Part shown: piece after piece, positions 6,032 through 43,547 of the stretch
How positions within the stretch are numbered: position 1 is the stretch's first letter
How the letters are laid out: every line of letters begins with the position of its first letter
Origin: a virus
IMG/VR virus record: IMGVR_UViG_3300042731_002677
Span: 1 to 49,177 of that record
Direction: 5' to 3' (one strand)
DNA: 49,177 nucleotides
Notes under the pieces: model-generated
Seen by the model: only the letters and a program-made list of their open reading frames with translations
Databases searched by the model: none
Told to the model about the DNA's origin: nothing
Translations under genes and position numbers: made by a program

Positions 6032-6475
6032 GTGAAAAAATTAGACATCATAGTCAAAATACCTAGCAATCGCGGAATCAGGATCCCTGACAAGTTTCAG
6101 CAAACGTTCCGCGACATCTTGGATTACTGCGAAAAGAAGCGTAACGGGTATCTACGGGTGCAAGTCTCGCCGCCATACGTTAGGCGATCAAGGGGTCAGC
6201 AGGGCCTTGTTCACGACTGGTTCCAGGACATAGCCGTGTTTACAGGGAACGACTTGGGACATGTAAAGATGGCGATGAAAATAATGGCGATGGATGAGGG
6301 ATGGCCACCAATGCGCCACGCTGACGGATCGCCTGTAATAGATATACTCACGGGGAAACCAAAGCCAATGTCTGAGGGTGAAGCAAGTATAGAGGAGGAG
6401 CAGATACTTCTTCGGGTGACGGAAAGGTTTGCGGCTGAATATGGTATAGAACTGAGAAAGGGGCAGCGTAGATGA
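6032..6475 (+). CDS. Unknown phage protein next to HNH gene
   Basis: 147 residues from a GTG start. The motif RRSRGQQGLVHDWFQDIAVF, followed by TGNDLGHVKMAMKIMA, resembles in layout the R-S-x-x-Q-N core of NinB-type recombination proteins, though the Gln-Asn pair is replaced by Gln-Gln, so I do not assign it. It overlaps the HNH gene by four bases, a pairing common in phage recombination modules. A role in DNA recombination is plausible. Confidence 0.6.
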   Translation: MKKLDIIVKIPSNRGIRIPDKFQQTFRDILDYCEKKRNGYLRVQVSPPYVRRSRGQQGLVHDWFQDIAVFTGNDLGHVKMAMKIMAMDEGWPPMRHADGSPVIDILTGKPKPMSEGEASIEEEQILLRVTERFAAEYGIELRKGQRR

Positions 6476-6867
6476 GCAAAAAAAAGACTGTAACAGACAG
6501 GGCCATGCAAGTGTGGTGGAGGAGGGCCATACTAGCCAGCCACAACAACACATGCGCCGTGTGTGGCCGCGTCCGTAGTTCATCGGACATGGAGTGCCAC
6601 CACCTGATAAAGAGGCGCTATCGCATTCTTAGACATGACTACAGGAACGGCGTCCCCGTGTGCGTTGGCGACTGTCATAGAAAGGCGGATAACAACTCGG
6701 GTTGGTTGATATCAAAGCATCAGTACCGCGAGCATCTAACAGACATCACAAGCAACTACACAACCATAAAAGACTTTCTTATTGATCGCGGTATGACGCT
6801 TGCCGAGCATGATGCTCAGATGCTTGAGGAGTTGAAAGAGGTTGCTGGGCGGTTTGATAACGTCTAA
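6472..6867 (+). CDS. HNH-type nuclease-like protein
   Basis: 131 residues. Zinc knuckle CAVCG near residue 25, the HNH core ECHHLIKRRYRILRHDYRNG with its paired His, and CVGDCHRKADN forming the second zinc pair and the final His. HNH enzymes cut DNA with one metal ion. The C-terminal helices (EHDAQMLEELKEVAGRF) are a usual extension. It overlaps the previous gene by ATGA. It sits far from the terminase, so a recombination or resolvase-like role fits better than packaging. Confidence 0.8.
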   Translation: MSKKKTVTDRAMQVWWRRAILASHNNTCAVCGRVRSSSDMECHHLIKRRYRILRHDYRNGVPVCVGDCHRKADNNSGWLISKHQYREHLTDITSNYTTIKDFLIDRGMTLAEHDAQMLEELKEVAGRFDNV

Positions 6868-17586: not shown

Positions 17587-17615
17587 TTGCTCATATTATT
17601 ATTTAAGGCTATCAT
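17587..17615 (+). promoter_or_regulatory. Late promoter before terminase (leaderless)
   Basis: TTGCTC at 17587-17592, 17 bases, TATCAT at 17610-17615. Only six bases separate the -10 box from the GTG at 17622, so the mRNA would start at or beside the start codon. No ribosome site precedes that GTG, which agrees with leaderless translation. Confidence 0.6.
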
Positions 17616-17621
17616 AAGGTC

Positions 17622-18182
17622 GTGACAACCAAGCAAGAACTGTTTATAGATAACTATGTAGCCAACGGCTTTAACGCTACTCAGGCAGCAAAGGACGCAG
17701 GATACTCTCTTAAAACAGCGTATTCGATAGGACAGAACCTGTTGAAGAACGTTGAAATATCAAAGGCCATTAACAGTAAGATAAGGGAAATTCTTTCCGA
17801 CGTAGACAAAGCCGCTTTCGATATAATCAAAGACCTAGACGAGATAAGGGAAGCCGACATCGGCGATTATGTGAATATTGAAGAAATCGTCGATCCCGAG
17901 ACGGGGTCAAAGATTCAGCGGGCGGTATTTAAGCCAACGGAGAACCTTAATACAAAGGTAATTTCAGAGATTGCAGAAACCCAGAGCGGTGGGCTTAGAA
18001 TCAAGATGTATGATCGGCTGAAGGCTACGGAGTTAAAGGGCCGGTATCTATCTATGTGGTCCGATACGCTAAACGTTGTTAGGGACAACGCTGGTAGTGC
18101 CGACCAATTGAGCCGAGAAGAACGCAAGAAGCGAATAATGGAACTATCTCGGAAAATGGATATCGAAAAAGATGCTGACTGA
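17622..18182 (+). CDS. terS: Terminase small subunit
   Basis: 186 residues, Terminase_2-type. The N-terminal DNA-binding helix-turn-helix is seen in KQELFIDNYVANGFNATQAA and DAGYSLKTAYSIGQNLL, followed by an oligomerisation helix and a charged C-terminal tail. It recognises the packaging site and hands DNA to the large subunit, which overlaps it by 11 bases. The GTG start is six bases after a -10 box with no ribosome site. Confidence 0.85.
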   Translation: MTTKQELFIDNYVANGFNATQAAKDAGYSLKTAYSIGQNLLKNVEISKAINSKIREILSDVDKAAFDIIKDLDEIREADIGDYVNIEEIVDPETGSKIQRAVFKPTENLNTKVISEIAETQSGGLRIKMYDRLKATELKGRYLSMWSDTLNVVRDNAGSADQLSREERKKRIMELSRKMDIEKDAD

Positions 18183-24580: not shown

Positions 24581-25131
24581 TGGGATCAAGAAGTCGCGCA
24601 ATATCAAGCCATTTCAAGGAAAACCAGAAACTAGTAGGCGTAGAGGTAGGCGTACGCTACGGCAAGAACGCTGAGGCTTTGCTTGGCCGTCTCCCGAACC
24701 TCACGCTCTGTTTAGTCGATAGGTGGGAGAAGCCAGTCCGGGGTGACAGCTATTACAACTCAGGAGATGGGATCGCCGATAGACCGAACGGCCACTTTCG
24801 TAAGTGCTATAATGAAATGCTTCACAGGACAAAGCGCTACGCTAACCGTGTTCACGTCAGACGCCAGGATTCATTATCTGCCGCAGCCGATTTTTTGAAG
24901 CGCGGTATGGCGTTTGATTTCATATTTATCGACGCGGATCACAGCTATGAAGGGGTGAAGCGAGATATTCAAGCGTGGTGGCTACTTGTGAAGGATGGTG
25001 GATATCTTTGCGGGCACGATTACAACCACCCCAGAATCGGAGAGGTTAAACGCGCAGTTGATGAGGTGTTTGATAGCGTTGAACTCATGGAAGATATGAC
25101 GTGGTTTGTAAAGAAGAATGACAAAGGCTGA
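24580..25131 (+). CDS. SAM-dependent methyltransferase (Methyltransf_24-like)
   Basis: 183 residues starting in a one-base overlap. Motif I is KLVGVEVGVRYGKNAEALLG near residue 15, with the acid at motif II in LCLVDRWEKP, then AFDFIFIDADHSYEGVKRDI and GGYLCGHDYNH as the metal and substrate region. This fits the sugar O-methyltransferases of surface polysaccharide clusters. It closes the island and overlaps the MuF gene. Confidence 0.8.
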   Translation: MGSRSRAISSHFKENQKLVGVEVGVRYGKNAEALLGRLPNLTLCLVDRWEKPVRGDSYYNSGDGIADRPNGHFRKCYNEMLHRTKRYANRVHVRRQDSLSAAADFLKRGMAFDFIFIDADHSYEGVKRDIQAWWLLVKDGGYLCGHDYNHPRIGEVKRAVDEVFDSVELMEDMTWFVKKNDKG

Positions 25132-27004
25132 ATACAACCGCTTATATTCACAATCCCGCAAGAACTGGCCGACGCTTACGTCAGCAACAATGCGCAACCT
25201 TCGATCAACGTACATAGAGGCATCGAAACAGGCCGGGGCAATTGTGCGAGAATCGACAAGGGCAGGTCTAGCGTCTGTCACGAGCGGACAATACATGCAA
25301 CTACAGGCGCAACTTGAGCGGGCCGTTAGGCGTTTGAACGATGCGATAGACGCCGGGGTTAAATCGACGGTGAATGCTGGATGGTCGGCATATGCGAGGA
25401 TCGAAACTGAATATGTGGTTGAGTCGGCAATCAAAGCGAACGTTCTTTCTGCTATCGGCGGTGCTACACGGATCAGAAACTTCTACACCGGCCTAAGCGA
25501 TACCGTTATCACCAACATGGTATCGAGGATTTACCAGGACGGTTACATGTATTCTGGCCGGGTTTGGCGCGCCGCCTCAGACTACCAAACGCAGATTAAC
25601 CGTGTGCTTTCCACGGGGATATCTTTAAACCGTGACGTTATTGAAATAGCGCGAGACATTGAGCAGTACACAAGATACGGTAAAGATTCTTTAATGCAGA
25701 GATATGGCGAGCTTGAACACGGGACTAAACGGTTCACGCGTCGCATTCGGAGGCGCGTTGATTATCGGGCGCTCCGGCTTGTGCGCTCAGAACTCGCCGC
25801 AAGCCTCCAGGACGCCGCTTTGATAGCTGGGCAGAATAACCCGGCGTCAAATGGTCTTTATGAGTGGATTAGGGTTAACGTCCAGGAGTGGGGGTGCGAT
25901 TGCCCAGACAATGCGGCGAATAGTCCTTACACGCTTGAGAATGTTCCAGACTATCCTCACGCCAACTGCCATCCTGCCGGAACTAATGTTTTAACAAACA
26001 GTGGATATATTAGTATAGAGAGCATAGTTCCTGGTGATTTGGTCGTTTCTGCAGACGGGAACATGAAGCCAATTACCCACGCATGGAAACAGGTATATAG
26101 CGGAGATGTTGTTGAGATAAAGACAGAAGACGGGGTAATTGTGGCAACGCCTGAGCATCCTCTACGGTCTAGCGACGACTGGGTCCTCGCGCATACGCTT
26201 GAGCCTGGAGATAACCTCAGATGCGTACGCCCCAACGTCGAAACCTTCCCTTCTATCGAACCTAAACCTAACAACAGTCCATCCAAGACCTTCGAGAAAA
26301 GAGGTTTTTTTAATGTCTATAGCCTGCTTCTTGGGGGCGGAGTGCCAGTTACCGCCATCGACTTCGACGGCGAGCTTTACGTCAGAGAAGGCGAGGTCGA
26401 TATTGTATCTACCGACAGCCAGGTTTGGGAAAGGCTTCTCTCCTCTGGAGGCAAGCTCTTCAAAGAGAATCCTTTCGTATGGGCTCCTGATGGTCCCGGA
26501 ATAGAACTTAGCTATCTTGGATTGGTGTTCAAAAGAATTGGGTACACCCCGCTTAGCATCATGTGCGGGTCCAGTATTACTCTTCCTGCCGTTTGCAACG
26601 CTTCTATAGGCGCCCTCGGAAACTGTGGGAACTTTAAGCCCGATGTCAGTGAGGTTCCGACTAACACAGCCTCTAGAGACGCCGAAGTGTTTAGCTATCT
26701 GGTTCACGGGAAGGTATCTGTCAACAAAAAGCCGTCTCAGTTCGTCGATCGGAAGTTCTATTTTTCTACACACGATAGCGCTATTGTAAGTGTTGAAAAG
26801 AAAAGGGTCAATACCGTGGTTTACAACCTAACTGTTGCTAACGATCATTCGTATATTGCTAATGGGTTCATGTCTCATAATTGCGAATGCCAAATACGCC
26901 CATTACTTATCGATAATAAAGTATTTGTTGATGATCTTATCAGGTGGGACCAAGGCGAAGATGTTGGATATATCAATGCGTGGGTGGATAGAGTACGCGC
27001 CTAA
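25118..27004 (+). CDS. MuF-like minor head protein interrupted by an intein
   Basis: 628 residues, ATGA-overlapped by the methyltransferase gene. Residues 1-283 and 589-628 are the extein: a helical head-morphogenesis protein (RLYSQSRKNWPTLTSATMRN, then LVRSELAASLQDAALIAGQN). The MuF signature, normally H-P-N-C-x-C, is restored by joining YPHAN to CECQIRPLL once residues 284-588 are removed, giving a 323-residue protein. MuF-like proteins sit with the portal in the prohead. The intein thus splits the most conserved site of the gene. Confidence 0.88.
   Translation: MTKAEYNRLYSQSRKNWPTLTSATMRNLRSTYIEASKQAGAIVRESTRAGLASVTSGQYMQLQAQLERAVRRLNDAIDAGVKSTVNAGWSAYARIETEYVVESAIKANVLSAIGGATRIRNFYTGLSDTVITNMVSRIYQDGYMYSGRVWRAASDYQTQINRVLSTGISLNRDVIEIARDIEQYTRYGKDSLMQRYGELEHGTKRFTRRIRRRVDYRALRLVRSELAASLQDAALIAGQNNPASNGLYEWIRVNVQEWGCDCPDNAANSPYTLENVPDYPHANCHPAGTNVLTNSGYISIESIVPGDLVVSADGNMKPITHAWKQVYSGDVVEIKTEDGVIVATPEHPLRSSDDWVLAHTLEPGDNLRCVRPNVETFPSIEPKPNNSPSKTFEKRGFFNVYSLLLGGGVPVTAIDFDGELYVREGEVDIVSTDSQVWERLLSSGGKLFKENPFVWAPDGPGIELSYLGLVFKRIGYTPLSIMCGSSITLPAVCNASIGALGNCGNFKPDVSEVPTNTASRDAEVFSYLVHGKVSVNKKPSQFVDRKFYFSTHDSAIVSVEKKRVNTVVYNLTVANDHSYIANGFMSHNCECQIRPLLIDNKVFVDDLIRWDQGEDVGYINAWVDRVRA
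26162..26773 (-). CDS. Antisense-encoded HTH and Vsr/DUF559-like homing endonuclease
   Basis: 203 residues, GTG start, wholly inside the intein and antisense to it. Residues 10-46 form a helix-turn-helix (YLPVNQIAKHFGVSRGCVSR). Residues 97-172 match the Vsr/DUF559 (EDxHD) nuclease core: SPYERILFEELASRG (E100), YNIDLAF (D126), KLAVEVDGGNWH (E137, D139, H144), D153, then FLEGLGWTVVRFRF. The TAG stop is the complement of the Leu codon in block B EHPL; the start lies about 40 bases before block F. The codons are in register with the sense codons. A promoter lies just upstream on this strand. Confidence 0.85.
   Translation of the reverse strand: MCRKIELPIDELRRLFVDRYLPVNQIAKHFGVSRGCVSRNLTDIGLKVPTVSEGAYRSVANGRKSNTGPAHDAKRGVPNSFEHQSKIAKFYSGTIRSPYERILFEELASRGEKPFPNLAVGRYNIDLAFSDVKLAVEVDGGNWHSAPKKQAIDIKKTSFLEGLGWTVVRFRFDRREGFDVGAYASEVISRLKRMREDPVVARP
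26783..26811 (-). promoter_or_regulatory. Leftward promoter of the antisense nuclease
   Basis: Read on the minus strand: TTGACC (26811-26806), 17 bases, TACAAT (26788-26783), then nine bases to the GTG at 26773. No ribosome site is present, so a near-leaderless transcript is expected, as for the late promoters. The promoter lies inside the intein coding sequence ahead of block F. Confidence 0.6.
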
Positions 27005-27014
27005 ACATTAATGC

Positions 27015-27044
27015 TTGACGTTTGTATAGTATTTCTTCTAAAAT
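27015..27044 (+). promoter_or_regulatory. Late promoter before protease/scaffold gene (leaderless)
   Basis: TTGACG at 27015-27020, 18 bases, TAAAAT at 27039-27044, then six bases to the GTG at 27051. There is no ribosome site before that GTG. Same geometry as 17587-17615, 32953-32981 and 34395-34423. Confidence 0.65.
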
Positions 27045-27050
27045 GCCATT

Positions 27051-28349
27051 GTGAAGCAGTCAATGGTTTGCAATGGCAAAACGCCAAAGAATCTAGTTGC
27101 GTTTAACTTCCTATCATCTCAGGTTTCAATCAATGCCGATGATGTTCCAACGCTTGTCTCCGACAAGGTGATGTCTGAGCTTACCAACGGAGACGAGAAT
27201 CCGTATTTCAAGATTCAGGCAATAAATTATCCCGTTAACGGTTCTGGCATCTATCCTCACGACGAGGCTGTTTACACCGAAGAGTTTTTCGAGTCTTTTG
27301 TCAACGTGACAAAGGAGCGCCCAATACCGGGATCAAAGCGTGGTCATGAGTGGGGATCTAGGCCAAATAACGACTTTTACATGGTTGGCGGATCACTCGT
27401 CAAGAACGGCGACGGAAAAGGGACCGTTTACTTCAAAAACTACATTCCTCCAGAGGGGGATGGAACTTCAAACCTGGGGTTCCTGCGAGACCTGAAGGCT
27501 GGCATTGTCCACTTCTCTCTTGTCACAATGCCGGAATATAACGTTAGCGAAGACGAGAAAATGTACATTACTGGCTCCATTGGCCACGAAAGAAACGACG
27601 CTGTACAGTACGGCGACGGGGCCATGGAGCAGACAACCAATAGTAAGTATCAAGATGAATTCTTCGAGAGGGCAAAAAATCTTATTTCCGATGGCAAGAT
27701 TGACATAAAGACTAGAGCTAATAGTGGAGAGCCCATCCAAAACGGAAAGGTTGTGCGTTCCGTGCTGCGACGAATAGTCGCCCGCGCTAACGTCGAGAAC
27801 ACTTCCGATTTTGCAGAGCTAATCTCCATGATTGATAAACAAAAAAGAGGAGCCAATATGGACAAGGATGAACTGTTCAAACTACTTGGAAACATGAAGC
27901 AGAACGGTGAAATCACTCTTTCAGAGGTTGCTAATGCGATGGGGTTGAAGGATCAGGTTGTCACCGATGACCACAAATCCGCCGCCTCTGTTGTTAATAG
28001 CCTCAAAGAAATTGATGTCGCCGATCCGGTTAAAGAAATCAAAGAGCTTCGGAACAAACTTGAAGCCGTTGATGCCGATAGGGTCAAGAACGCTCTTGAT
28101 GCCGCGTTTGGTCCCGAAAAAGACAGCGATGGAAAGGACAATCCTGTTCGCCAGTACGCTGGAAAGATGACCAAGGATGCCAAGGCTGACAATATCGACG
28201 CCAAGATTGAAGAGCTGAAAAACGATTCCGTTATGAAACAGCTTGCCGGAAACAAAGCGGATTACCGCTCCGAACAGAACACTATCGGAGTAGTAGAAAA
28301 TCGACAGGGTGATGGTTCCAAAGACGAACCACAGACCTATAAATACTAG
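27051..28349 (+). CDS. Prohead protease/scaffold-type fusion protein
   Basis: 432 residues from a leaderless GTG. The first 200 residues resemble a Mu I-like or prohead protease-type head protein (GIYPHDEAVYTEEFFESFVN; GHEW; VHFSLVTMPEYNV with a possible active-site His and Ser). The last 165 residues are charged, coiled and Lys/Glu/Asp rich, typical of a scaffold (EIKELRNKLEAVDADRVKN). A second start with AGAGGAG at 27858 would give the scaffold alone. Context before the decoration and major capsid genes fits head assembly. Confidence 0.72.
   Translation: MKQSMVCNGKTPKNLVAFNFLSSQVSINADDVPTLVSDKVMSELTNGDENPYFKIQAINYPVNGSGIYPHDEAVYTEEFFESFVNVTKERPIPGSKRGHEWGSRPNNDFYMVGGSLVKNGDGKGTVYFKNYIPPEGDGTSNLGFLRDLKAGIVHFSLVTMPEYNVSEDEKMYITGSIGHERNDAVQYGDGAMEQTTNSKYQDEFFERAKNLISDGKIDIKTRANSGEPIQNGKVVRSVLRRIVARANVENTSDFAELISMIDKQKRGANMDKDELFKLLGNMKQNGEITLSEVANAMGLKDQVVTDDHKSAASVVNSLKEIDVADPVKEIKELRNKLEAVDADRVKNALDAAFGPEKDSDGKDNPVRQYAGKMTKDAKADNIDAKIEELKNDSVMKQLAGNKADYRSEQNTIGVVENRQGDGSKDEPQTYKY
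27858..28349 (+). CDS. Nested scaffold protein from internal start
   Basis: In-frame ATG inside the previous gene with a strong AGAGGAG ribosome site five bases ahead, giving a 163-residue scaffold (MDKDELFKLLGNMKQNGEIT). The same design is known from lambda C/Nu3, where scaffold is made from an internal start in the protease gene. The junction sits exactly where the sequence changes from globular to coiled. Confidence 0.6.
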   Translation: MDKDELFKLLGNMKQNGEITLSEVANAMGLKDQVVTDDHKSAASVVNSLKEIDVADPVKEIKELRNKLEAVDADRVKNALDAAFGPEKDSDGKDNPVRQYAGKMTKDAKADNIDAKIEELKNDSVMKQLAGNKADYRSEQNTIGVVENRQGDGSKDEPQTYKY

Positions 28350-30017: not shown

Positions 30018-30043
30018 AGGCCCCTGTTTCCAGGGGCCTTTTT
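30018..30043 (+). terminator. Strong terminator after the major capsid gene
   Basis: Stem AGGCCCCTG/CAGGGGCCT with loop TTTC and a following T-run. It stops rightward head-gene transcription where the leftward cassette ends head-on. On the minus strand there is no T-run, so it is mainly rightward. Confidence 0.88.
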
Positions 30044-30491
30044 ATTTGGCTTGTTTCTCATTGGTTTCTGATAGGAAAGTTTCTATAAACTCCCCACTAT
30101 TCAAAACAACGATTTCGCAGTAATCCAAGACCAACAAAGCCTCTAACCATATTCTCCAATGTTTCATCATTGTCCCGATAAACTCATATGGGGAATCTCT
30201 ATCAATATATCGATCAAGATATTCGTTTCGTAAAGCAGGGTCTGGCAATATTAGCGTAATCGAGACTCCCAACTTGTCCAGATCGGCTAAAACAATAGGA
30301 TCTGACGAAACAAACAATATTTTATTGTTTTCAATTTTATCAACTATGGCCTTGGTATAATTATCAGGGAAATCACCAGAACGAAACTTCCAACATTCTA
30401 CTTCTGAATATACGTCTGGCGACTTATCGCATAAATAACTTTTACCAGTTCCCGGCCATCCGGCATAAACTCTGGAATGGGTGGTCTTCAT
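30042..30491 (-). CDS. P-loop NTPase or kinase-like protein
   Basis: 149 residues. Start at the ATG giving MKTTHSRVYAG, with GGGAGGGAAGAGAA ahead; upstream in-frame sequence belongs to the seam. Walker A is VYAGWPGTGKSYLCD near residue 10. A strand ILFVSSDPIVLADL and VSITLILPDPALRNEYLDRY fit small nucleoside or polynucleotide kinase folds. The partner residues are not clear enough to name a substrate. Last gene of the leftward cassette. Confidence 0.62.
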   Translation of the reverse strand: MKTTHSRVYAGWPGTGKSYLCDKSPDVYSEVECWKFRSGDFPDNYTKAIVDKIENNKILFVSSDPIVLADLDKLGVSITLILPDPALRNEYLDRYIDRDSPYEFIGTMMKHWRIWLEALLVLDYCEIVVLNSGEFIETFLSETNEKQAK

Positions 30492-30633
30492 TTCTCTTCC
30501 CTCCCGGTCATGCGTTCTCGGAGCCATTGGGAGATAATCTTGACAAACTCAAGCTCGTGATCGGTTGCTCCACACCATATCTAGTGCCGTAACTTCCCAA
30601 ACGCCGCCTCAATCTCCTCACGCTCGGGAACTG
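30488..30633 (-). pseudogene. Frameshifted remnant of the 12423-type gene
   Basis: Within the end of the peptidase gene, other frames code pieces of the intact rightward gene: FPS then, after a one-base loss, EEIEAAFGKLRH and stop; further on, KIISQWLRERMTGREEK and stop. DNA at 30604-30633 and 30500-30526 matches 12750-12780 and 12855-12881. The remnant ends in an ATGA overlap with the P-loop gene, as an intact gene would. Confidence 0.7.
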
Positions 30634-31089
30634 ACAAGGGTTGCTTAATGGTTCCTCGAATTGTTTGTTTGATCCGGTAATATTATTTTCATCAAATGGC
30701 TCGAACATATGCCAATACATCACGTTGGCATCTTCTTTTGTTTTACCAAGATATAATTTGTTCGGGTTCGGATCGTGTACAATAATCCCGTTAACGTCTA
30801 AAACGACCGAGTGAGTGCCGTCTTCAAACAATGACGACGGAACGGTAGCAAGGAAACAACCATTAACAGAGTCTTCTTCGCGTAGGCCGCGAGTAGATTT
30901 AATGTCACAGTTTCCAGCATATGAAAATCCGAAATATCCCATGAAATGCAAAAAGAAGAAAAACCAATCGTCCCCATACCTGATAAAGTGTGGAACCTGT
31001 TCAAGAGATAGGTCTAGGATTGAGGCCACTGCCGCCCTTGTGCAATCTCCGTCACCTTTGTCGATAATAGATTGATAAACCCGCTTCAT
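30508..31089 (-). CDS. C39-like cysteine peptidase-type protein
   Basis: 193 residues. GDGDCTRAAVASILDLSLEQ near residue 12 supplies a Cys after a Gln/Asp loop, and DGTHSVVLDVNGIIVHDPNP near residue 105 gives His and Asp, the C39/papain-like triad order. The last 40 residues (RRLRRRLGSYGTRYG and on) are a basic out-of-frame reading of an older gene, so the working protein may be the first 150. It sits where the rightward cassette has the middle of the 12423 gene. Substrate unknown; a host-directed or tail-processing role is possible. Confidence 0.6.
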   Translation of the reverse strand: MKRVYQSIIDKGDGDCTRAAVASILDLSLEQVPHFIRYGDDWFFFFLHFMGYFGFSYAGNCDIKSTRGLREEDSVNGCFLATVPSSLFEDGTHSVVLDVNGIIVHDPNPNKLYLGKTKEDANVMYWHMFEPFDENNITGSNKQFEEPLSNPCQFPSVRRLRRRLGSYGTRYGVEQPITSLSLSRLSPNGSENA

Positions 31090-31115
31090 TGTTCACAGTC
31101 CTCACGCGTCGTCAT
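31086..31115 (-). pseudogene. Nine-codon remnant start of the 12423-type gene
   Basis: The seam at 31101-31129 still carries the ATG and first codons of the 12423-type gene (MTTREDCEQ versus MTMREK), but the frame stops at an ATGA overlapping the peptidase start. It may now act only as a coupling peptide. Confidence 0.5.
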
Positions 31116-31278
31116 TGGTGGAATCCTCCTCGTGACATTCGTGCGGTCTTGGCACAAACCCACTAGTTGTTTTCGTGCCTGGATAGATACCGTGACACCG
31201 TGGGCATTCGCCAATATCGGAATAATATGGAGTATCTGTATAAGTCATCTCAGAACTACCAATTGTATATTCGCTCAC
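31102..31278 (-). CDS. Small unknown protein with EDSTNDDA tail
   Basis: 58 residues from a GTGA overlap with the preceding gene. Contains a zinc-like CPRCHG and PHECHE pair, and ends in EDSTNDDA as does the rightward gene at 12191, whose core is unrelated. Both flanks are conserved seams. Confidence 0.55.
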   Translation of the reverse strand: MSEYTIGSSEMTYTDTPYYSDIGECPRCHGIYPGTKTTSGFVPRPHECHEEDSTNDDA

Positions 31279-31709
31279 CCCTCTACCTCCTCGCCTTTCG
31301 GCTTATTAGGCCGCTTGCCAGTTCCGTCGCAATCTGGACAATGGACTCTTGCTGGTTTGCCCGTTTCCTCGTCGATCATCCTGAGAAGATGATATCCTTT
31401 TCCGTCACACTCCGGGCACCTGTCCGGTTCCTCTTTCTCGGTGATGGCTCGGATGCGTTCCCGCGTAGCGTCGCGCACGTGGGCATCGTCGGCCATTTCT
31501 AATTCTACGACGGCAAGAAGTTCCCGCAGTTCCCGGTTCTCCTGTTCGAGGGCGGCGATGCGGGTATTATGTCCATAGATCCTTTCAACCGAATCAATCA
31601 AGACAGCTTCAATATGATCACGCTCACAAGTCGCATCGCAATCTTCAAGAAGCCACCAAACGTCTGAATCAATAAGCTTTTGATATGCGTCTCGGCTTAG
31701 TTCAATCAT
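31275..31709 (-). CDS. Coiled-coil zinc-ribbon protein (seam family)
   Basis: 144 residues. After an N-terminal segment with DVWWLLEDCDATCERDH, the RIAALEQENRELR coiled coil (DNA identical to 11681-11719) leads to a DnaJ-like zinc site, RCPECDGKGYHLL and HCPDCDGTGKRP, and the KPKGEEVEG tail. Its counterpart at 11667 shares head module, RCPEC and tail. CxxCxGxG pairs suggest a chaperone-type zinc ribbon. Confidence 0.65.
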   Translation of the reverse strand: MIELSRDAYQKLIDSDVWWLLEDCDATCERDHIEAVLIDSVERIYGHNTRIAALEQENRELRELLAVVELEMADDAHVRDATRERIRAITEKEEPDRCPECDGKGYHLLRMIDEETGKPARVHCPDCDGTGKRPNKPKGEEVEG

Positions 31710-31712
31710 CCC

Positions 31713-32120
31713 TCAATCCTCCTTTGGGTTGCTTTCTAAAGAAACCCAGTCCGAAGAGGACTCCCACCTTTCGGCCATTTTTGCAACAACGTGATCCGGT
31801 ATCTCGTGAACAGATCGCCATCGGCCGTAACATTCAATAATCTGAACATCGGCTCCGCTTTCTTGGGCCATTTCGAGATACGGCTGCGCCTCCCACTTCT
31901 GGGAAAAGGTATTCGCCACAGCGACATCTTCTCCACGCATGAGAGCGTCCCGAACCATCTCCTGACACCACTCATGTGCATCCTTTATCTCTTCTCGGCG
32001 AAATGTATACGTTCCGGCCACCATAAAATACTGATCAGCTTCGAAGTATTGAACACCAAGCGCTTTCGCAAGTGTCGTCTTCCCTGAACCCGGAAGTCCT
32101 CGAATTATAGTAAGAGTCAT
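31713..32120 (-). CDS. P-loop kinase-like protein (AAA_33/PNK type)
   Basis: 135 residues. Walker A IIRGLPGSGKTTLAKALG near residue 4-20, then EADQYFMVAGTYTFRREEIK, DVAVANTFSQKWEAQPYLEM and VQIIECYGRWRSVHEIPDHV, the plan of polynucleotide kinase-like small NTPases that also occur in phage RNA repair. An aspartate follows the second strand as expected. Start fixed by a TGATGA overlap inside the 20-base seam. It fills the slot held by a zinc-finger gene in the rightward cassette. Confidence 0.72.
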   Translation of the reverse strand: MTLTIIRGLPGSGKTTLAKALGVQYFEADQYFMVAGTYTFRREEIKDAHEWCQEMVRDALMRGEDVAVANTFSQKWEAQPYLEMAQESGADVQIIECYGRWRSVHEIPDHVVAKMAERWESSSDWVSLESNPKED

Positions 32121-32371
32121 CACTCCCCCTCATCCGCAGAGTTAAATAGGCTGATTCCTTCCGAACCAACATATAGGCGAATTGGCCGGTTATATTTTCC
32201 TCGGCGATCAAGGTGAACCGTATATGACGGCCGACTTTCTCCGTCTGCGAAAACTATCAATGACGCTTTAACAACGTGCCCAGCTTCTGGTGTGTTATAG
32301 TGGCTTCTGTAGTTCTCAACGACAACCTTTGACCCGGGAAGAATTATTTCTCCAGAAACATTTTTCTTCAT
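32120..32371 (-). CDS. Unknown 83-residue beta protein with ADEGE tail
   Basis: Beta-rich (GEIILPGSKVVVENYRSHYN; RPSYTVHLDRRGKYNRPIRL), possibly an SH3-like barrel. The last residues SADEGE come from a 20-base seam identical to 11184-11203, and its start follows a near copy of the same seam, so the gene looks inserted between two seam copies. Confidence 0.55.
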   Translation of the reverse strand: MKKNVSGEIILPGSKVVVENYRSHYNTPEAGHVVKASLIVFADGESRPSYTVHLDRRGKYNRPIRLYVGSEGISLFNSADEGE

Positions 32372-32638
32372 TTACTCATCCCCCTCATCCGCCTTGATGC
32401 GGATCGGCTTGCCGCAGTCGCACGGGCGACCACTTTCTATTCTGGCGTTGTGGTGAGTCACCGGATCATTGGCCCCACATGCCGCGACCCATATGTAGCG
32501 GATGCCGGATTTATCAAGATGCCGTTCACAGTATTCCGGCTCTTCTTGCTTGATGATTTCTTCCGGCGTTTCTCCAACATAGAGATCACCCTCGCTCTGT
32601 GGGACTCCGTTTTTATCTAATAAGCCAGAGTCAATCAT
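32372..32638 (-). CDS. Zinc-site protein with KADEGDE tail
   Basis: 88 residues. EEPEYCERHLD and CDCGKPIRIKADEG form the Cys site shared with the rightward gene at 10752 (38 identical bases); the N-terminal 40 residues differ. It overlaps the upstream gene by ATGA. Confidence 0.6.
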   Translation of the reverse strand: MIDSGLLDKNGVPQSEGDLYVGETPEEIIKQEEPEYCERHLDKSGIRYIWVAACGANDPVTHHNARIESGRPCDCGKPIRIKADEGDE

Positions 32639-32823
32639 TGCTTCTCGCCTCTCTTGTCATGAACATTGAGAAATGACTTTGCCCTTTCCTTCCAATATGG
32701 CCTATTTGCCATCTCTGGGTTCATAAGAACATCTCCGATTATCTTTACAGCTTCGGATATTTGGCCTTTGCGCAAAGCTTCTATCCTGTCGTTAAGGCTA
32801 TCCAACAGTTCGTCAATGGTCAT
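32635..32823 (-). CDS. First gene of the leftward cassette, unknown helical protein
   Basis: 62 residues, ATG with an excellent GGAGGTGATTTTT site behind the leftward promoter. Helical, charged (LLDSLNDRIEALRKGQISEA), ends in HDKRGEKQ. No family recognised. Confidence 0.6.
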   Translation of the reverse strand: MTIDELLDSLNDRIEALRKGQISEAVKIIGDVLMNPEMANRPYWKERAKSFLNVHDKRGEKQ

Positions 32824-32844
32824 AAAAAATCACCTCCAAAAATA

Positions 32845-32873
32845 ATCATAGACCACAAAAAAGCGTTTGTCAA
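32845..32873 (-). promoter_or_regulatory. Strong promoter of the leftward cassette
   Basis: On the minus strand TTGACA (32873-32868), 17 bases, TATGAT (32850-32845): a near-consensus sigma70 promoter. The leader is short and carries GGAGGTGA. It would allow expression independent of the lytic program, as in moron genes. Confidence 0.85.
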
Positions 32874-32952: not shown

Positions 32953-32981
32953 TTGATTAGGTTCGTTTGTGTCAATATAAT
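32953..32981 (+). promoter_or_regulatory. Late promoter before connector gene (leaderless)
   Basis: TTGATT at 32953-32958, 17 bases, TATAAT at 32976-32981, then six bases to the ATG at 32988. No ribosome site. It is divergent to the leftward promoter with 80 bases between their -35 boxes. Confidence 0.8.
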
Positions 32982-32987
32982 ATAGCC

Positions 32988-33479
32988 ATGGCTACTTTTG
33001 CGAATATCAAGAAGGTTCGACTGGCGATTGATGACCCACCGGGGTTTGTGGATTTGATATCGGTTGCGACAAGCTCTACACTTCCGGCGTCACCAAAGCA
33101 TCAAACTGCCTATTATGTCGTAGATGATGACGAATATCGAGCCACAGATGTGACTGTGGTTGCTACACCGGCAGACTATGAGGTGCTCGATCTTCGGGTA
33201 TCAGACGAACGGATAGGAGACTGGATAGACTCGGATGGCGTATATGATGCCAGGGTCTATGCGCTCCGGGACATAACCCGGAAGCTTGGTCAAGAACTAG
33301 CTCTTGTCCGCACCCAGTCTGGCGCGGAGTCGAACGAGTACAACGCATTGCTCGATACCTATAAATACTACAAGGGCCTTATTTCTGATGCTGAAAAAGA
33401 GGCGCAGGTAGAATCGCTTAACTCTTCGGGTAGGCTACTTTCAACCACTGCCCCGGAGATTGCGGGGGGAAACCTTTGA
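32988..33479 (+). CDS. Head-tail connector protein
   Basis: 163 residues. An upstream in-frame TTG would lie within the -10 box, so the ATG is taken as a leaderless start. The helical C-terminal half (YDARVYALRDITRKLGQELA) with a beta insertion fits the gp6/gp15-type connector adaptor that sits under the portal. Followed by closure- and neck-type genes in standard order. Confidence 0.65.
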   Translation: MATFANIKKVRLAIDDPPGFVDLISVATSSTLPASPKHQTAYYVVDDDEYRATDVTVVATPADYEVLDLRVSDERIGDWIDSDGVYDARVYALRDITRKLGQELALVRTQSGAESNEYNALLDTYKYYKGLISDAEKEAQVESLNSSGRLLSTTAPEIAGGNL

Positions 33480-33871: not shown

Positions 33872-34077
33872 TGAAGGTTCCAGATTCCGCAGACGCTACG
33901 CCGGACGAGGTTAAGTCGGAGACACCCAAAAGCGGAGAGCGATACATCATGAATCCATACCACGGCGTTGAAATGCTAACACCACACGAGGCCATGGACA
34001 TGATCAGTTCTCTCTCTACAATGTTGGTTATAGATGAGCGTCATAGAGGACACCAGAAAGGTATTGTTAAGAACTAG
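33871..34077 (+). CDS. Small unknown protein of the neck region
   Basis: 68 residues, ATG overlapping the previous stop. Disordered acidic start (DSADATPDEVKSETPKSGE) and a short helical end; no motif. It overlaps the next gene by 44 bases. Confidence 0.5.
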   Translation: MKVPDSADATPDEVKSETPKSGERYIMNPYHGVEMLTPHEAMDMISSLSTMLVIDERHRGHQKGIVKN

Positions 34078-34394: not shown

Positions 34395-34423
34395 TTGACT
34401 ATACACATGTTAAGTGTGAAAAT
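34395..34423 (+). promoter_or_regulatory. Late promoter before tail completion gene (leaderless)
   Basis: TTGACT at 34395-34400, 17 bases, GAAAAT at 34418-34423, six bases to the GTG at 34430. No ribosome site. The -35 begins directly after the preceding stop codon. Confidence 0.6.
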
Positions 34424-34429
34424 AGCCAT

Positions 34430-34786
34430 GTGATAACCAAGATCGTGTCGCGTCTTAAAACAGGATCTATTTCCAACGTGGTCCCGTTTGGATGGCCCGA
34501 AATGCCGAACGCTCCGTATGTGGTTGTGAAACCTGAAAAAGACCCACTTGGACGCGGAAGGATTTTCCGGGTTATTCCACACTTTCCACCTGGTTCTCAA
34601 ATAGACCTTGAGGCGTACACCTTCGAGGAATTATCTACACTTTTGGATGACTATCAGACAGACTCGCGCAATGGGAACACGAACGATGTGCTTTCAGAGC
34701 AAGAATGGACTGATTATGTCTCGAACAACGACGACGGCACGATCTCTATGGAACGCGTGTTTCTAGTGCCGATGATGTTACACTAA
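34430..34786 (+). CDS. Tail completion/terminator-like protein
   Basis: 118 residues, leaderless GTG. KIVSRLKTGSISNVVPFGWP and the strand YVVVKPEKD, then a helix EELSTLLDDYQT and final strand MERVFLVPMML, fit the tail-terminator/completion fold found just before the tube gene. Confidence 0.58.
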   Translation: MITKIVSRLKTGSISNVVPFGWPEMPNAPYVVVKPEKDPLGRGRIFRVIPHFPPGSQIDLEAYTFEELSTLLDDYQTDSRNGNTNDVLSEQEWTDYVSNNDDGTISMERVFLVPMMLH

Positions 34787-34797
34787 GGAGGTAACAT

Positions 34798-35733
34798 ATG
34801 GCTTTAAGGACGGCTGCCCGTTATGGGTTCGGGCTGAAGTTCGTTAGATTGCAGGCGCTGAATGACGACCTGACTATCCCAACCGCATCGCGGATTATTG
34901 GCGGGGCTGGCCCGTTTGATTTCTCCGGTGTGACCGATGATTCTGCGGTTCCGATTACTGTCAAGCTCGATGATTCTGCGGCCGTCAGCTTTACTGTTGA
35001 TGTCTCTGGAGCGTCTTCGGCCTCTGCTGTTACGGTTGACGAGCTTGTTTCTGCGCTTGATACCGCATTCACCGGTGAGTCTTTGGAGCTTGATGCGTCT
35101 AAAAGTGTGACCGATGACAACAGGCTCAAGATCGAGACCACGGACACATCAACCACTCCGACCGTTGTACAGATTTACGGACAGTGTGCGGAGATTGCAA
35201 AGCTCGGCCAGGGCTTCGGAGCGAAGTACGTAAAGCTCAACACCGCGCAGTCACTTTCGGAGACCATGACTCGCAAGGATTCGGAACAGCTTACTATCAC
35301 AGATTCCGAAGGCAAGGACACCGAGATCAATACCGATGACTACCTGAAGGGGTTTACCGCTGTCCTCACCGACACGGCGCACGATTGGGAGCTTCGCAGC
35401 CTTATCCAGGGTGGATCGCTCAATGACGATGAAGACGAGTATGACTACCCGACTTCAGCGTCCGATAAGATCTACTTCTTCGGCGAGGCGTACTACGCTG
35501 AGTACACTCAAGGTGATCACCTCGAATCCGACATTGTTGGATACGTCAAGAAACTTCTGCGGAAAATGAAGGGCAACCTGGGAGACGTTACCCAAGAAAG
35601 GAATTGGTCACAGTGGGCTTACAATCTTACCGGGACTTCGTATACCGACGAATCCGGTAACCTGCTCGGGGCTATTAAGGACTTCAAGCTGACCATTAGC
35701 GAATATGAAGCCCTCAGTCTCGAGTCGGTCTAA
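34798..35733 (+). CDS. Major tail tube protein
   Basis: 311 residues, ATG with AAGGAGGTAACAT, the best ribosome site in the window, as expected for an abundant protein. Beta-rich; an inserted Ala/Ser/Val domain (residues 45-125, SFTVDVSGASSASAVTVDEL) recalls the Ig-like or D1 additions of some tubes. Position before chaperone and tape measure genes supports the call. Confidence 0.75.
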   Translation: MALRTAARYGFGLKFVRLQALNDDLTIPTASRIIGGAGPFDFSGVTDDSAVPITVKLDDSAAVSFTVDVSGASSASAVTVDELVSALDTAFTGESLELDASKSVTDDNRLKIETTDTSTTPTVVQIYGQCAEIAKLGQGFGAKYVKLNTAQSLSETMTRKDSEQLTITDSEGKDTEINTDDYLKGFTAVLTDTAHDWELRSLIQGGSLNDDEDEYDYPTSASDKIYFFGEAYYAEYTQGDHLESDIVGYVKKLLRKMKGNLGDVTQERNWSQWAYNLTGTSYTDESGNLLGAIKDFKLTISEYEALSLESV

Positions 35734-36352: not shown

Positions 36353-39300
36353 TTGGCTGTTGATGCTGGTTCTATATTTTCAGAAGTAAGAGTCTCGCTC
36401 GACAAGCTCAGAGCCGACCTTTCAAAGGTTGATGCTCGGTTCGGGAAATTTGCGCAGACCAATCAACAGCAATCTAATAAGGTCCAGGGATTCTGGACCA
36501 AATCATTCGGGAAAATATCGGCCGGTGGAATAGCGGCCTTCGCCGGTATCGGTCTTGCGGTAAAGTCGGCAGTAAAGACGTTTGCTGGGTTTGAACAGTC
36601 TCTTGCAAACGTAGAGTCTGTGGCCGGTGCTACGGCTTCGGAGATGGACGAGCTACGAGCCGCAGCCATTCGCGCAGGTGAGCAGACACGGTTTACGGCG
36701 TCCGAAGCTGCGGACGCAATGTACTATCTTGCATCTGCCGGTTTCGATGCTTCCGAATCTGTTTCAGCCCTCGATGGTGTTCTCTCTCTAGCAACTGCAA
36801 CACAGAGTGACTTAGCATCAACCTCTGCATCTGTTGCTGCATCAATATCTCAATTTGGCCTAGATGCATCTGCCGCGTCATTAGTTGCTAATGTTTTTGC
36901 CGCTGCTATTGGAAATTCACAAGCAAATATGGAGAAACTTACAAACTCCATGCGCAATGTTGGGCCAGTTGCCGGTGCGTTAGGAAAGTCTATAGAAGAA
37001 ACAGTTGGAGTTCTTCAGGTCCTTTATGATGCTGGTTTTCAGGGGGAACAGGCTGGAGTCGCACTTAGAAATATATTTATTTCACTTGCGTCAAAATCAG
37101 ATCCAATAACACAAAGATTAATGCAACTTGGATTAACTTTCGAGGAGTTAAATCCGCAGGCAAATAGCTTTGCAGAAATAGTCGATAATATTAACGCCAA
37201 AATAGAAGACCCTGCACAAGCGCTTGAAGCGTTCGACAAGAGGACTGGCCCCCAACTCATTTCATTGCTCAAGGCCGGTGGAGAGGCCATAAACGAATAT
37301 ACCACAGCAGTTACGGGGACAAATAAGGCCGTGAGTGCTGCGGCGACTCAATTGGACACGCTTCAAGGTTCGTTTGACCTGTTAAAAAGCGCGGCGCAGT
37401 CAGCGGCTATCAATATCATTAGTGAATTGCAACCGGCTATCCGTGGCCTAGTTGATTTTATCCGCGGGTTAATTGAGAGATTTAACGGCCTACCGGGACC
37501 GCTCAAAGCTTTTACTGGTGCGGCGGTTATAGCCATTCCGGTAATAGGCGCTCTTGCCGCTGCCGTTGCGGCCCTACAGGCTGCCGCGTCCGGCGGGCTG
37601 ACTCTTATCCTTGCCGGTGTCGCTGGCGGCATAGCGGCTATCGCATCGGCATCAGCTAAGGCTAAACAAGCTAAGGTCGACGAGCTTTTCGGAGATGTTT
37701 CAGAAAGACTGAAAGGCGCGGCAGAGAACGGTGAAGATTTAGTTGAGGCAATCAAGGAGATATCCAGAGAAACCGGACTGTCTGTTGATCAGGTTATTAA
37801 TCTTGCGGAAGAACATGGACTTGTAACCTCTGAAATATCGCAACAAGTCGCATTACTCAGAGAGAGCAACGCAGAGCTTGACGAGAACGCAAAGACAGCA
37901 AAAGAGATAGTAAAAGAAAACGAATATATTAGGGCAAATCTAGCGACAGCGGCTAATAGCATGGGCGATATGGGTGAAATTGCTCAGAACTACGCCAGAA
38001 ATATGAATGTTTCGCTTGAACGTGTGATTTCAATAGCCCAAACGCTTAATAATCTTACGCCAGCTCAAGAAGAACAGTTGCGTCTACTCAAACTCCAGGC
38101 CGAAGAGTGGGCAAAGATCCGCGAGGAAGATATAGCCAGCCTTGAACGCGCATCAGGTAGGGCTGGCGAGAGGGAGAGGGCGGCAGCGGCAGCGAGAGCC
38201 GAAGCCGAGGCAGACGCGGAAGCGCTAAGGATAGACACTCTCAGGGCACAAATAGAAGACGAGTACAAAGCGGCACGGGCTAAGGTCCTTGAGGTAATAG
38301 ACGCCGAGAGAAGCGAAGTTGATAAGATAAGGGAACAGGTAGATTATCTCAACGCCCACCCATGGAGCCTCACAGATGCCGAAGGGAGACGACTAGACGC
38401 AGACAGGATTAAGGCTCTTGAAATTCTCAATCAACAATTAATTGCCGCACAAAATGAGACAAGTGAAGCAGCGAATGCACAAGAAGAATTTAGGAAAAAA
38501 ATAGAAGAAATAGGCATAGAAGAACGCGAATTATTAGACCTAGAAGAATCTAGGGCCTTAGCTTCCGCGGAACTATATGAAGGTACGGCAGATGAAATAA
38601 ACGACGCAAGAAAAGCTATTTCGGATTATTACGATTTATTGCGAAAGGTTAGAGATGAAGAGGCAAACGAGGAAGCCGCCAAAACATTAGAACATTATTC
38701 CAATCTTCTTCTTGAGAAAACAGAATTAGATAAAATATCTATTGAAAACGAACGCCAAAAGGCCATTGAGGCGGTGCGTGGCCTTAATGCGTCAGATATT
38801 GCAACCGAACAAGCAATTGATAAAATAAACGAATACTATGATTCCCTACAAAAGCGAGACGCGTGGGACCGATTCATTGAAAACGCAAATAGTATCATCG
38901 GGCCTGTGTCGTCCATACTGGACGCCGTTGGTGGTCTATATGATGCACTCGCACAACAGCAGATAGATGCGCTTGACAGGGAGCTACAGGCCCGTTTGGA
39001 GTCTCTTGGTATAGCAGAGGAGACAACGCTAGAGAGTCTTCAAAGACAGCTTGACGAGGCGATAGCCGCTGGAGACATGGAAACGGCTGCCGACCTTGAG
39101 GATGAAATACAGAGAGAAGAGATAACCAAAGAATATGAGCAGAAAAAGGCGACAATTCAGTATCAAGCCGATCTAAAGGGCTGGCGGTTGAAGCTGCTTA
39201 GCGCTATAGCCTCCGGGGCGCTTGCTATTACAAATGCGTTTGCCACTCGTCCGTTTATACCAGCAGGATTGATAGCTGGGTCTCTTGCCACGGCCCTAAC

Positions 39301-41692: not shown

Positions 41693-41702
41693 GGTATATA
41701 AT
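41673..41702 (+). promoter_or_regulatory. Late promoter before tail hub gene
   Basis: TTACAT at 41673-41678, 18 bases, TATAAT at 41697-41702. The ATG at 41712 is nine bases after the -10 box, and no ribosome site precedes it, so the transcript would be leaderless or nearly so. Confidence 0.55.
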
Positions 41703-41711
41703 CGCCACTAG

Positions 41712-43547
41712 ATGGTAATAGTACAGATAGCAATAACAGAAGAGCTTGGCAATAGAATAACAAACATAGAGCCGTTTGTTTTTAAGATATACACAGGGCC
41801 ATTTGTGTCAACCTTCCCCAACACGTTCGGATTTACGTTCGATGGATCGGGCCCAGCAATTGAAATCATAGATTTTCTACGCGCACCGGAAGCTGGCTAT
41901 CAAGAAAAGACATCGTATTCTAGCGTTGTTGAGGATGAGGCATCTTGGTATTTTGACACAACAAACCAAATAGTCTATTTTCACGTTGAACATGATTATG
42001 GACGAGACACAACGTATCTGAGTGGAACGGCTTATGGTTATTGCTCGGATAGGCCAATAGGTATTGGCGGATTCCAATATCTTCCTCTGGTCAAAAGCGT
42101 ACCAGATTTAAGCCAGCAACAAGATATAATAGATTATGACATACCATCTATGATATCTGGGGCAATAGAACTTGATAGTTCAAGCGGAGAATTGGACTTC
42201 TTTATAACGACTGATATTTATGGAAACAGAATCTATATATTTTTCCTCGATGATCTACCAACAATTGACATCTATGAATTCTCTGATCTTGTTCAACTGG
42301 CAGCTCTCTCGGTGGACGATTACGATTTTACGGTTTCTTCTGTATTAATAAGAATAAAGGATCTCCGCGAAGAGGGTAATGTACAAATACCCACAGACCT
42401 ATTTAATGCAACTGACTATCCAGACATCAAGGATAACCTCATTAATAAGCCTATACCTTGGAGATTCGGAGAATTACGCGAGGTAAAGTTAATCTGCACA
42501 AACGGAAAGTCGACTAGCGGGAACGTCAGCTATAGGGCTGGTATAGAGATGACCAGCTTCGGAACTCCATATGTAAAGGATGGTGACACATGGACGTCTG
42601 TAACTGCCGTATCATCAGATACAAGCACGGGAGAAATAGTCCTTGCAGAGGCTGACGCAAGGAACGGGACAAATCCAAGAGAGGCGAAACTGGTCAACTG
42701 CGAGGGGATATCAAACGACAGATCAACCGATGTCATACGCGAGCTTAACTATCGTGCGCTTGGAACAACTTTTGATAGTTCAAATTATAACATTGGAGAG
42801 TGGGCATCGGAAGAACTATCGCTTGGTCCGATTGCCCTAAGCCTTGAAAAGCAAAAAAAACTCTTTGATGTCATAGCTGATATTCAGAACGGAAGCAATG
42901 TCGGATTTAGGTATTCGATAACGGCAGACGGCAAAAGAACCATAAGAATCGATAGTGAGGGCAGGACGCCAGTCTACCATGTCACAAATACCGACATCCA
43001 GAATAGAAACGAACTACCGGTTACGACAGACGCCACAACACTCGCGGCAATAGTTAATATCGATTACGATAAATCATATGTAGACGATGAGTATTATCGC
43101 TACACCGATGATTCTGAAGCCGAGACAACGTTTAATGCGTACAAGCAAAAGCCTACAACCACACTTGAGACGCTATTGACGACCGAAACTCTAGCGGCCG
43201 AGCGTGGCGATTTTCATCTTGAGAGATTTTCAACTATTCGCGGGATATTCTCTGGAACGCTGATGGGTGTCAAATATCTAACGCTTAGAATATACGATCT
43301 GATAACGATAGAGATAACCCCAGCCGATTTCGTAAATGTTGATAATAATATGATTGATGGACGCGAGTATTTCGGCATTAAGTTAATCAAGATTCTTTCT
43401 GTAGATCCTGACATAAGGGAGAAACAAAACAATATAAGCGGAGTAATAATCGACGACGCGAGGTTCCCAGAGCACCGTATAATGGAGTATGATGGTGGAG
43501 AAGAAGATTGGCTTTGGGATGACGGCGATTTCTGGGATTTCTATTAG
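41712..43547 (+). CDS. Tail hub/tip protein
   Basis: 611 residues. Beta-rich throughout: KIYTGPFVSTFPNTFGFTFD, a middle with SVLIRIKDLREEGNVQIPTD, and a C-terminal part with EKQKKLFDVIADIQNGSNVG as in phage tail hub proteins. It ends in an acidic Trp/Asp tail (DGGEEDWLWDDGDFWDFY). Size and place fit the tail-tip hub; no enzyme domain is seen. Confidence 0.6.
   Translation: MVIVQIAITEELGNRITNIEPFVFKIYTGPFVSTFPNTFGFTFDGSGPAIEIIDFLRAPEAGYQEKTSYSSVVEDEASWYFDTTNQIVYFHVEHDYGRDTTYLSGTAYGYCSDRPIGIGGFQYLPLVKSVPDLSQQQDIIDYDIPSMISGAIELDSSSGELDFFITTDIYGNRIYIFFLDDLPTIDIYEFSDLVQLAALSVDDYDFTVSSVLIRIKDLREEGNVQIPTDLFNATDYPDIKDNLINKPIPWRFGELREVKLICTNGKSTSGNVSYRAGIEMTSFGTPYVKDGDTWTSVTAVSSDTSTGEIVLAEADARNGTNPREAKLVNCEGISNDRSTDVIRELNYRALGTTFDSSNYNIGEWASEELSLGPIALSLEKQKKLFDVIADIQNGSNVGFRYSITADGKRTIRIDSEGRTPVYHVTNTDIQNRNELPVTTDATTLAAIVNIDYDKSYVDDEYYRYTDDSEAETTFNAYKQKPTTTLETLLTTETLAAERGDFHLERFSTIRGIFSGTLMGVKYLTLRIYDLITIEITPADFVNVDNNMIDGREYFGIKLIKILSVDPDIREKQNNISGVIIDDARFPEHRIMEYDGGEEDWLWDDGDFWDFY

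Follow-up and report, generated by a model that had tools for sequence, protein, structure and literature searches.

In the uncultured tailed phage studied here, the late mRNAs are very probably leaderless, a property limited to the gene that opens each late transcription unit. Comparison of its sequence with those of its relatives strongly supports this reading for the opening genes concerned: the terminase small subunit gene, a scaffold-type head gene, a connector gene and the gene preceding that of the tail tube. The whole stretch of DNA analysed, referred to here as the window, is the entire IMG/VR record IMGVR_UViG_3300042731_002677 (49,177 bases, 47.9% G+C).

In the mechanism that we propose, the late region would be split into several transcription units, each with an ordinary host-type sigma-70 promoter. 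With only 5-6 bases between the -10 box and the start codon of the opening gene, RNA polymerase would begin the message at the codon itself, on its first base, and this gene would be translated from a leaderless mRNA through 5'-end initiation. The downstream genes on the same message carry normal ribosome sites, on which they would rely. A terminator, visible as sequence behind the capsid gene, would close the head unit, and the following one would be restarted from the leaderless promoter after it. Where a relative has no such promoter, a ribosome site accompanies the same codon, mostly with a hairpin directly before it, and read-through from upstream would be used.

Late gene map and start-proximal promoters of the window

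For 89 genes of the window, the candidate starts within the first 150 bases were all scanned for a promoter with a score of at least 8.5, on the assumption that the promoter consensus of the host is sigma-70-like. A -10 box at 5-7 bases from the start occurs only at 17622, 27051, 32988 and 34430. One further match, at 34034, has its -10 box at 11 bases, and none of the antisense genes of the window has such a promoter. Four of the 12 promoter-to-ORF pairs in the window lie at distance 6 and the remaining eight are scattered over 29 distances. Reading and scan together confirm the preliminary description, which had reported a six-base spacing and no usable ribosome site at these four starts.

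The terminase small subunit gene (17622..18182, + strand; Pfam Terminase_2, 4e-30 from residue 1) has a predicted leaderless GTG start. Its promoter (17587..17621, +) includes a -35 box TTGCTC (17587-17592) and a -10 box TATCAT (17610-17615), and the site reads TTGCTC-N17-TATCAT-AAGGTC-GTG. Further along are the genes for the terminase large subunit (from 18172, +), the portal (from 19535, +) and a minor head protein (25118-27004, +) with Hint/intein splicing domains at residues 284-588. This intein is missing from the homologs in loci L006, L008 and L009; the L050 homolog is similar over its full length. The second predicted leaderless GTG start belongs to a head scaffold/protease-type gene (27051..28349, +). 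Its promoter (27015..27050, +; -35 TTGACG at 27015-27020, -10 TAAAAT at 27039-27044) gives TTGACG-N18-TAAAAT-GCCATT-GTG. In the G004, L037 and L042 homologs the C-terminal part is common and the N-terminal part different; from our own reading of the sequence we take the latter to be ClpP-like. The decoration protein gene (from 28360, +) and the major capsid gene (from 28745, +) complete this series, and an intrinsic terminator (30018..30039, +) lies directly 3' of the capsid gene.

The gene at 32988..33479 (+) is the first of the unit after the capsid terminator and has a predicted leaderless ATG start. Its promoter (32953..32987, +; -35 TTGATT at 32953-32958, -10 TATAAT at 32976-32981, six-base discriminator ATAGCC) forms the site TTGATT-N17-TATAAT-ATAGCC-ATG. 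PHROG and Pfam searches returned no family match for the product; by position alone it is a probable head-tail connector or completion gene. The fourth site, TTGACT-N17-GAAAAT-AGCCAT-GTG, lies before the gene preceding the tail tube gene (34430..34786, +; predicted leaderless GTG start), with its promoter at 34395..34429 (+; -35 TTGACT at 34395-34400, -10 GAAAAT at 34418-34423). In contrast, the tail tube gene itself (34798..35733, +) is internal to the unit and has a strong ribosome site, TAAGGAGG; the tape measure gene starts at 36353 (+). At 17622 and 34430 the promoters are weaker in their -35 or -10 boxes, and homologs for comparison are few.

An antisense cassette (30042-32823, -) lies between the capsid and connector genes and encodes a kinase/ATPase-like protein and a weak Q-like protein. 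The strong promoter which opens it (32823..32873, -; TTGACA-N17-TATGAT) is leadered, with 21 bases and a strong ribosome site, GGAGGTGA. The nine-base spacing previously attributed to an antisense nuclease was rejected, as was a second nine-base case, at 41712. There, TATAAT does lie nine bases upstream (41697..41711, +) but the best -35 box is only TTACAT (spacing 18) or CTTACA (19), with a score of 7.8, and all 17 starts that could be read in this gene family lack the geometry. Having neither a good -35 box nor conservation, 41712 was dropped from the set.

Conservation at unit boundaries among relatives

Two proteins, the tape measure and (as an alignment) the tail tube, served to gather the 28 dereplicated IMG/VR relatives, which are 31-58% identical in the latter. 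Their DNA is mostly too diverged for alignment, which makes a conserved promoter position meaningful. No capsid or tail-tube relative was found among annotated phages, and terminase and tail-tube scans yielded nothing in genomes from 84,980 species of bacteria and archaea. A tape-measure match to a Methanosarcinales-linked virus is confined to one domain; as the promoters are bacterial in type, it was not counted as evidence on the host. The terminase matches L002-L005 are unrelated phages and served as controls only; locus L054 (phage phiSLT, with leukocidin genes) was left out of the controls.

The preliminary description had proposed counting the geometry in related phages against random expectation. 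In counts that are not fully independent, the sites being related by descent (in proteins mostly under 60% identical), a best promoter 5-6 bases before the start is present at the 32988 position in 15 of 27 readable homologs, where dinucleotide shuffles predict 0.08, and at the 27051 position in 7 of 18 (0.04 expected), the fused homologs L037 and L042, plus L040, adding further sites. Examples at the 32988 position are TTGACA-17-CATAAT-AAACC-ATG (G004), TTGACT-17-TATAAT-TAGCT-ATG (G001) and TTGACA-17-TATGAT-AAGGC-ATG (L033). Two of three terminase small subunit genes share the geometry (0.03 expected), G001 with TTGATT-17-TATAAT-TACGTC-ATG at six bases; the third, that of G003, has TTGATA-17-TATACT at nine bases. 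At the 34430 position the count is 2 of 28 (0.09 expected), namely the window and G003 (TGGACA-17-TATTAT-TTCATT-GTG). A gap precedes the gene in these two phages; in the other relatives it mostly abuts the preceding gene and has a ribosome site. Across the 26 family sites the spacing is six bases in 18 and five in 8, so that the fixed six-base spacing first described is true of the four window sites but becomes five or six in the family. The -35 box begins with TTG in 21 of the 26, with spacers of 16-18.

Members without the geometry at the 32988 position mostly have a ribosome site instead, and in two of them it is combined with a promoter at 16-17 bases. Among unit-internal genes of the family (capsid, decoration, tail tube, tape measure) the geometry was never seen; ordinary ribosome sites precede the capsid gene, the tail tube gene (in all 29 homologs) and most of the remaining genes inside units. 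The original proposal that late head and tail genes at large are leaderless must therefore be narrowed to the first genes of units. The accompanying statement, that genes with a normal ribosome site lack the geometry, holds: no gene tested in the family combines it with a ribosome site match of at least 5.

The boundary itself is also conserved. All 15 members whose 32988 position has a leaderless-type start, the window included, carry an intrinsic terminator behind the capsid gene, and the promoter follows in a gap which measures 87 to 3,645 bases and frequently contains inserted genes. In many ribosome-site members, a hairpin at 15-23 bases before the start takes up the space that a promoter would need. 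In L043 a tRNA-Leu gene (6580-6671) ends 17 bases before the 32988 homolog, and tRNA processing could there give a short ribosome-site leader its 5' end. In a tree built from four concatenated proteins, the distribution of leaderless and ribosome-site states needs five changes, of which at least three are forced by well-supported branches.

Transcription start and competing explanations

A promoter-centred test, made independently of gene homology, started from all promoter-like sites on either strand of the family sequences and tallied the ORF starts by distance. Of the 125 promoter-to-ORF pairs, 36 have a distance of 5-6 bases (five in 12 pairs, six in 24), compared with a background of about 3 at each other distance (Poisson 1.6e-16) and with 1 of 27 pairs in eight unrelated phage loci (Fisher 0.005). 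RNA polymerase prefers to start 7 bp after the -10 box, with a purine at +1 and a pyrimidine at -1; purine-rich discriminators shift the start upstream, and start-site choice varies by 1-2 bases (PMC5730371). With six-base spacing, position 7 falls on the first base of the start codon. A pyrimidine occupies -1 in 26/26 family sites versus 84/179 ribosome-site genes (Fisher 3e-8), and the discriminators of the five-base sites are purine-rich (22/24 versus 29/54, p = 0.0016). Neither property played a part in site selection, and both are independent, if indirect, signs that transcription would start at the codon. At five-base sites it could also begin at the G of ATG, spoiling the start codon.

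These results make it highly improbable that the AT-rich spacer before starts simply mimics promoters by chance, at a distance picked by eye. Such -10 look-alikes are frequent (the window has 42 promoter-like sites with a score of at least 9) and 41712 is a case of this kind, for which chance may still hold. As a general account, however, chance is refuted by the conserved position in diverged relatives and the promoter-centred counts, and the shuffles, the control phages and the -1 pyrimidine also speak against it. Short-leader mRNAs are quite unlikely as well, whether transcription starts some bases upstream or within the codon, or the true translation start lies downstream behind a ribosome site. 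The 1-2 base variation in start-site choice would accommodate them, as would the nine-base spacing of the G003 terminase gene and of 41712, which would leave about 3 leader bases. Yet homologs, those of the 32988 gene among them, align from residue 1, members with a ribosome site use the identical codon, and the -1 pyrimidine and +1 purine coincide exactly with the codon.

We attach equally little likelihood to a phage-imposed shift of the host initiation machinery to leaderless messages late in infection, acting on top of leaderless promoters. Its precedent is Thermus phage phiYS40, whose middle and late mRNAs are leaderless and which is reported to bring about more IF2 and less IF3 (PMC3594737). 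Initiator tRNA, moreover, favours leaderless translation (PMC9031893). The geometry occurs mainly on late genes, in the window at late genes only, and the antisense cassette is leadered. In G003 (L017:13116-13190) the late unit contains an initiator-like tRNA-Met gene, located between that of the tail tube and the one following it. It has an A1:U72 pair but also a GGG:CCC anticodon stem and A11:U24, which are initiator tRNA marks, and it is unique to G003 among the contigs scanned. The window has three tRNA genes (2428-2749; CAT, Leu TAG, Leu TAA), and its CAT tRNA, with a mismatch at 1:72, an elongator-type anticodon stem without GGG:CCC and no A11:U24, was rejected as an initiator. Further against a shift, none of the products of the window was recognised as an initiation factor, a ribosomal protein, a sigma factor or an RNA polymerase. 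The capsid and tail tube genes, whose products are the most needed, retain ribosome sites. There is a slim likelihood that both mechanisms combine, with 5'-end initiation at unit-first genes, repeated swaps to ribosome sites, and a phage component such as the initiator-type tRNA of G003 tipping the cell towards leaderless translation late.

Leaderless starts under ordinary promoters, at the first genes of units only, are the reading that we retain. A palindrome search for an operator shared across the sites found CTTGAC-N-GTCAAG over the -35 box only in G002, G004 and L025, and a general shared operator was rejected. The inverted repeat lies in G004 at about 37215-37237 (L019 17215-17237), in L025 at 6198-6220 and in G002 (L021) at 1559-1582, and is a possible operator for a late regulator.

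Relation to known leaderless systems

The late messages of Thermus phage P23-45 are leaderless. Their promoters belong to the extended -10 class and a phage protein blocks -10/-35 promoters (PMC7403470). The phages described here resemble P23-45 and phiYS40 in the predicted use of leaderless messages for late genes. They differ from P23-45 in their canonical -35/-10 promoters, with good -35 boxes at spacings of 16-18, and no blocking protein was recognised; nothing comparable to the altered IF2/IF3 levels of phiYS40 is visible in the window. Of the two causes proposed in the preliminary description, a host good at leaderless translation fits, whereas a phage change to ribosomes finds no support in the genes recognised in the window. 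GUG leaderless starts are poor in E. coli and work well in some other bacteria (PMC9031893), and the three GTG starts among the four window sites suggest a tolerant host.

Among cellular genes the closest likeness is with TA-led leaderless genes, present in many bacteria (Zheng et al. 2011; PMC3160421), and with the Deinococcus -10 motif, in which the -10 box lies 6-7 bases from an ORF without a ribosome site (PMC12340547). In TA-led genes the box is some 10 bp upstream of the start, with 6-7 bp in between, and leaderless translation is spared by kasugamycin (PMC3160421). The separation is 6 bp at the four window sites and 5-6 bp in the 26 family sites, Shine-Dalgarno matches are likewise absent, and the initiation type also differs between orthologs. 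In Sulfolobus, operon-first genes are leaderless and distal genes have ribosome sites (PMC3160421, PMC12340547), an arrangement which the late units, with their predicted leaderless first genes, resemble. Unlike TA-led genes, the sites described here have a clear -35 box, belong to a phage and occupy conserved boundaries of the late map.

Leaderless late phage mRNAs, in a few phages, and the -10-to-ORF geometry were thus already known. New here is an uncultured phage family with a predicted leaderless geometry that is built on canonical -35/-10 promoters, is conserved at the boundaries of late units and, at one and the same codon, alternates between members with a ribosome site. About 29 distant relatives provide a natural series of homologous genes with one or the other type of start, in which one can ask what selects between two modes of translation initiation. 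In such phages, gene callers which depend on ribosome sites can go wrong at the genes that open late units, and the succession of terminator, -35/-10 promoter, 5-6 bases, pyrimidine and start codon offers a signature for leaderless late programmes in uncultured viruses.

The leaderless cI mRNA of phage lambda comes from a sigma-70 promoter. Named among leaderless mRNAs (PMC9031893), cI is likewise a leaderless phage gene, but it and other leaderless repressors are regulators of lysogeny and not structural late genes. In G004 a small repressor-like gene at 18409 (minus strand, L018), with a helix-turn-helix recognised by eye, has the same predicted leaderless geometry, TTGACG-17-TATACT-6-ATG.
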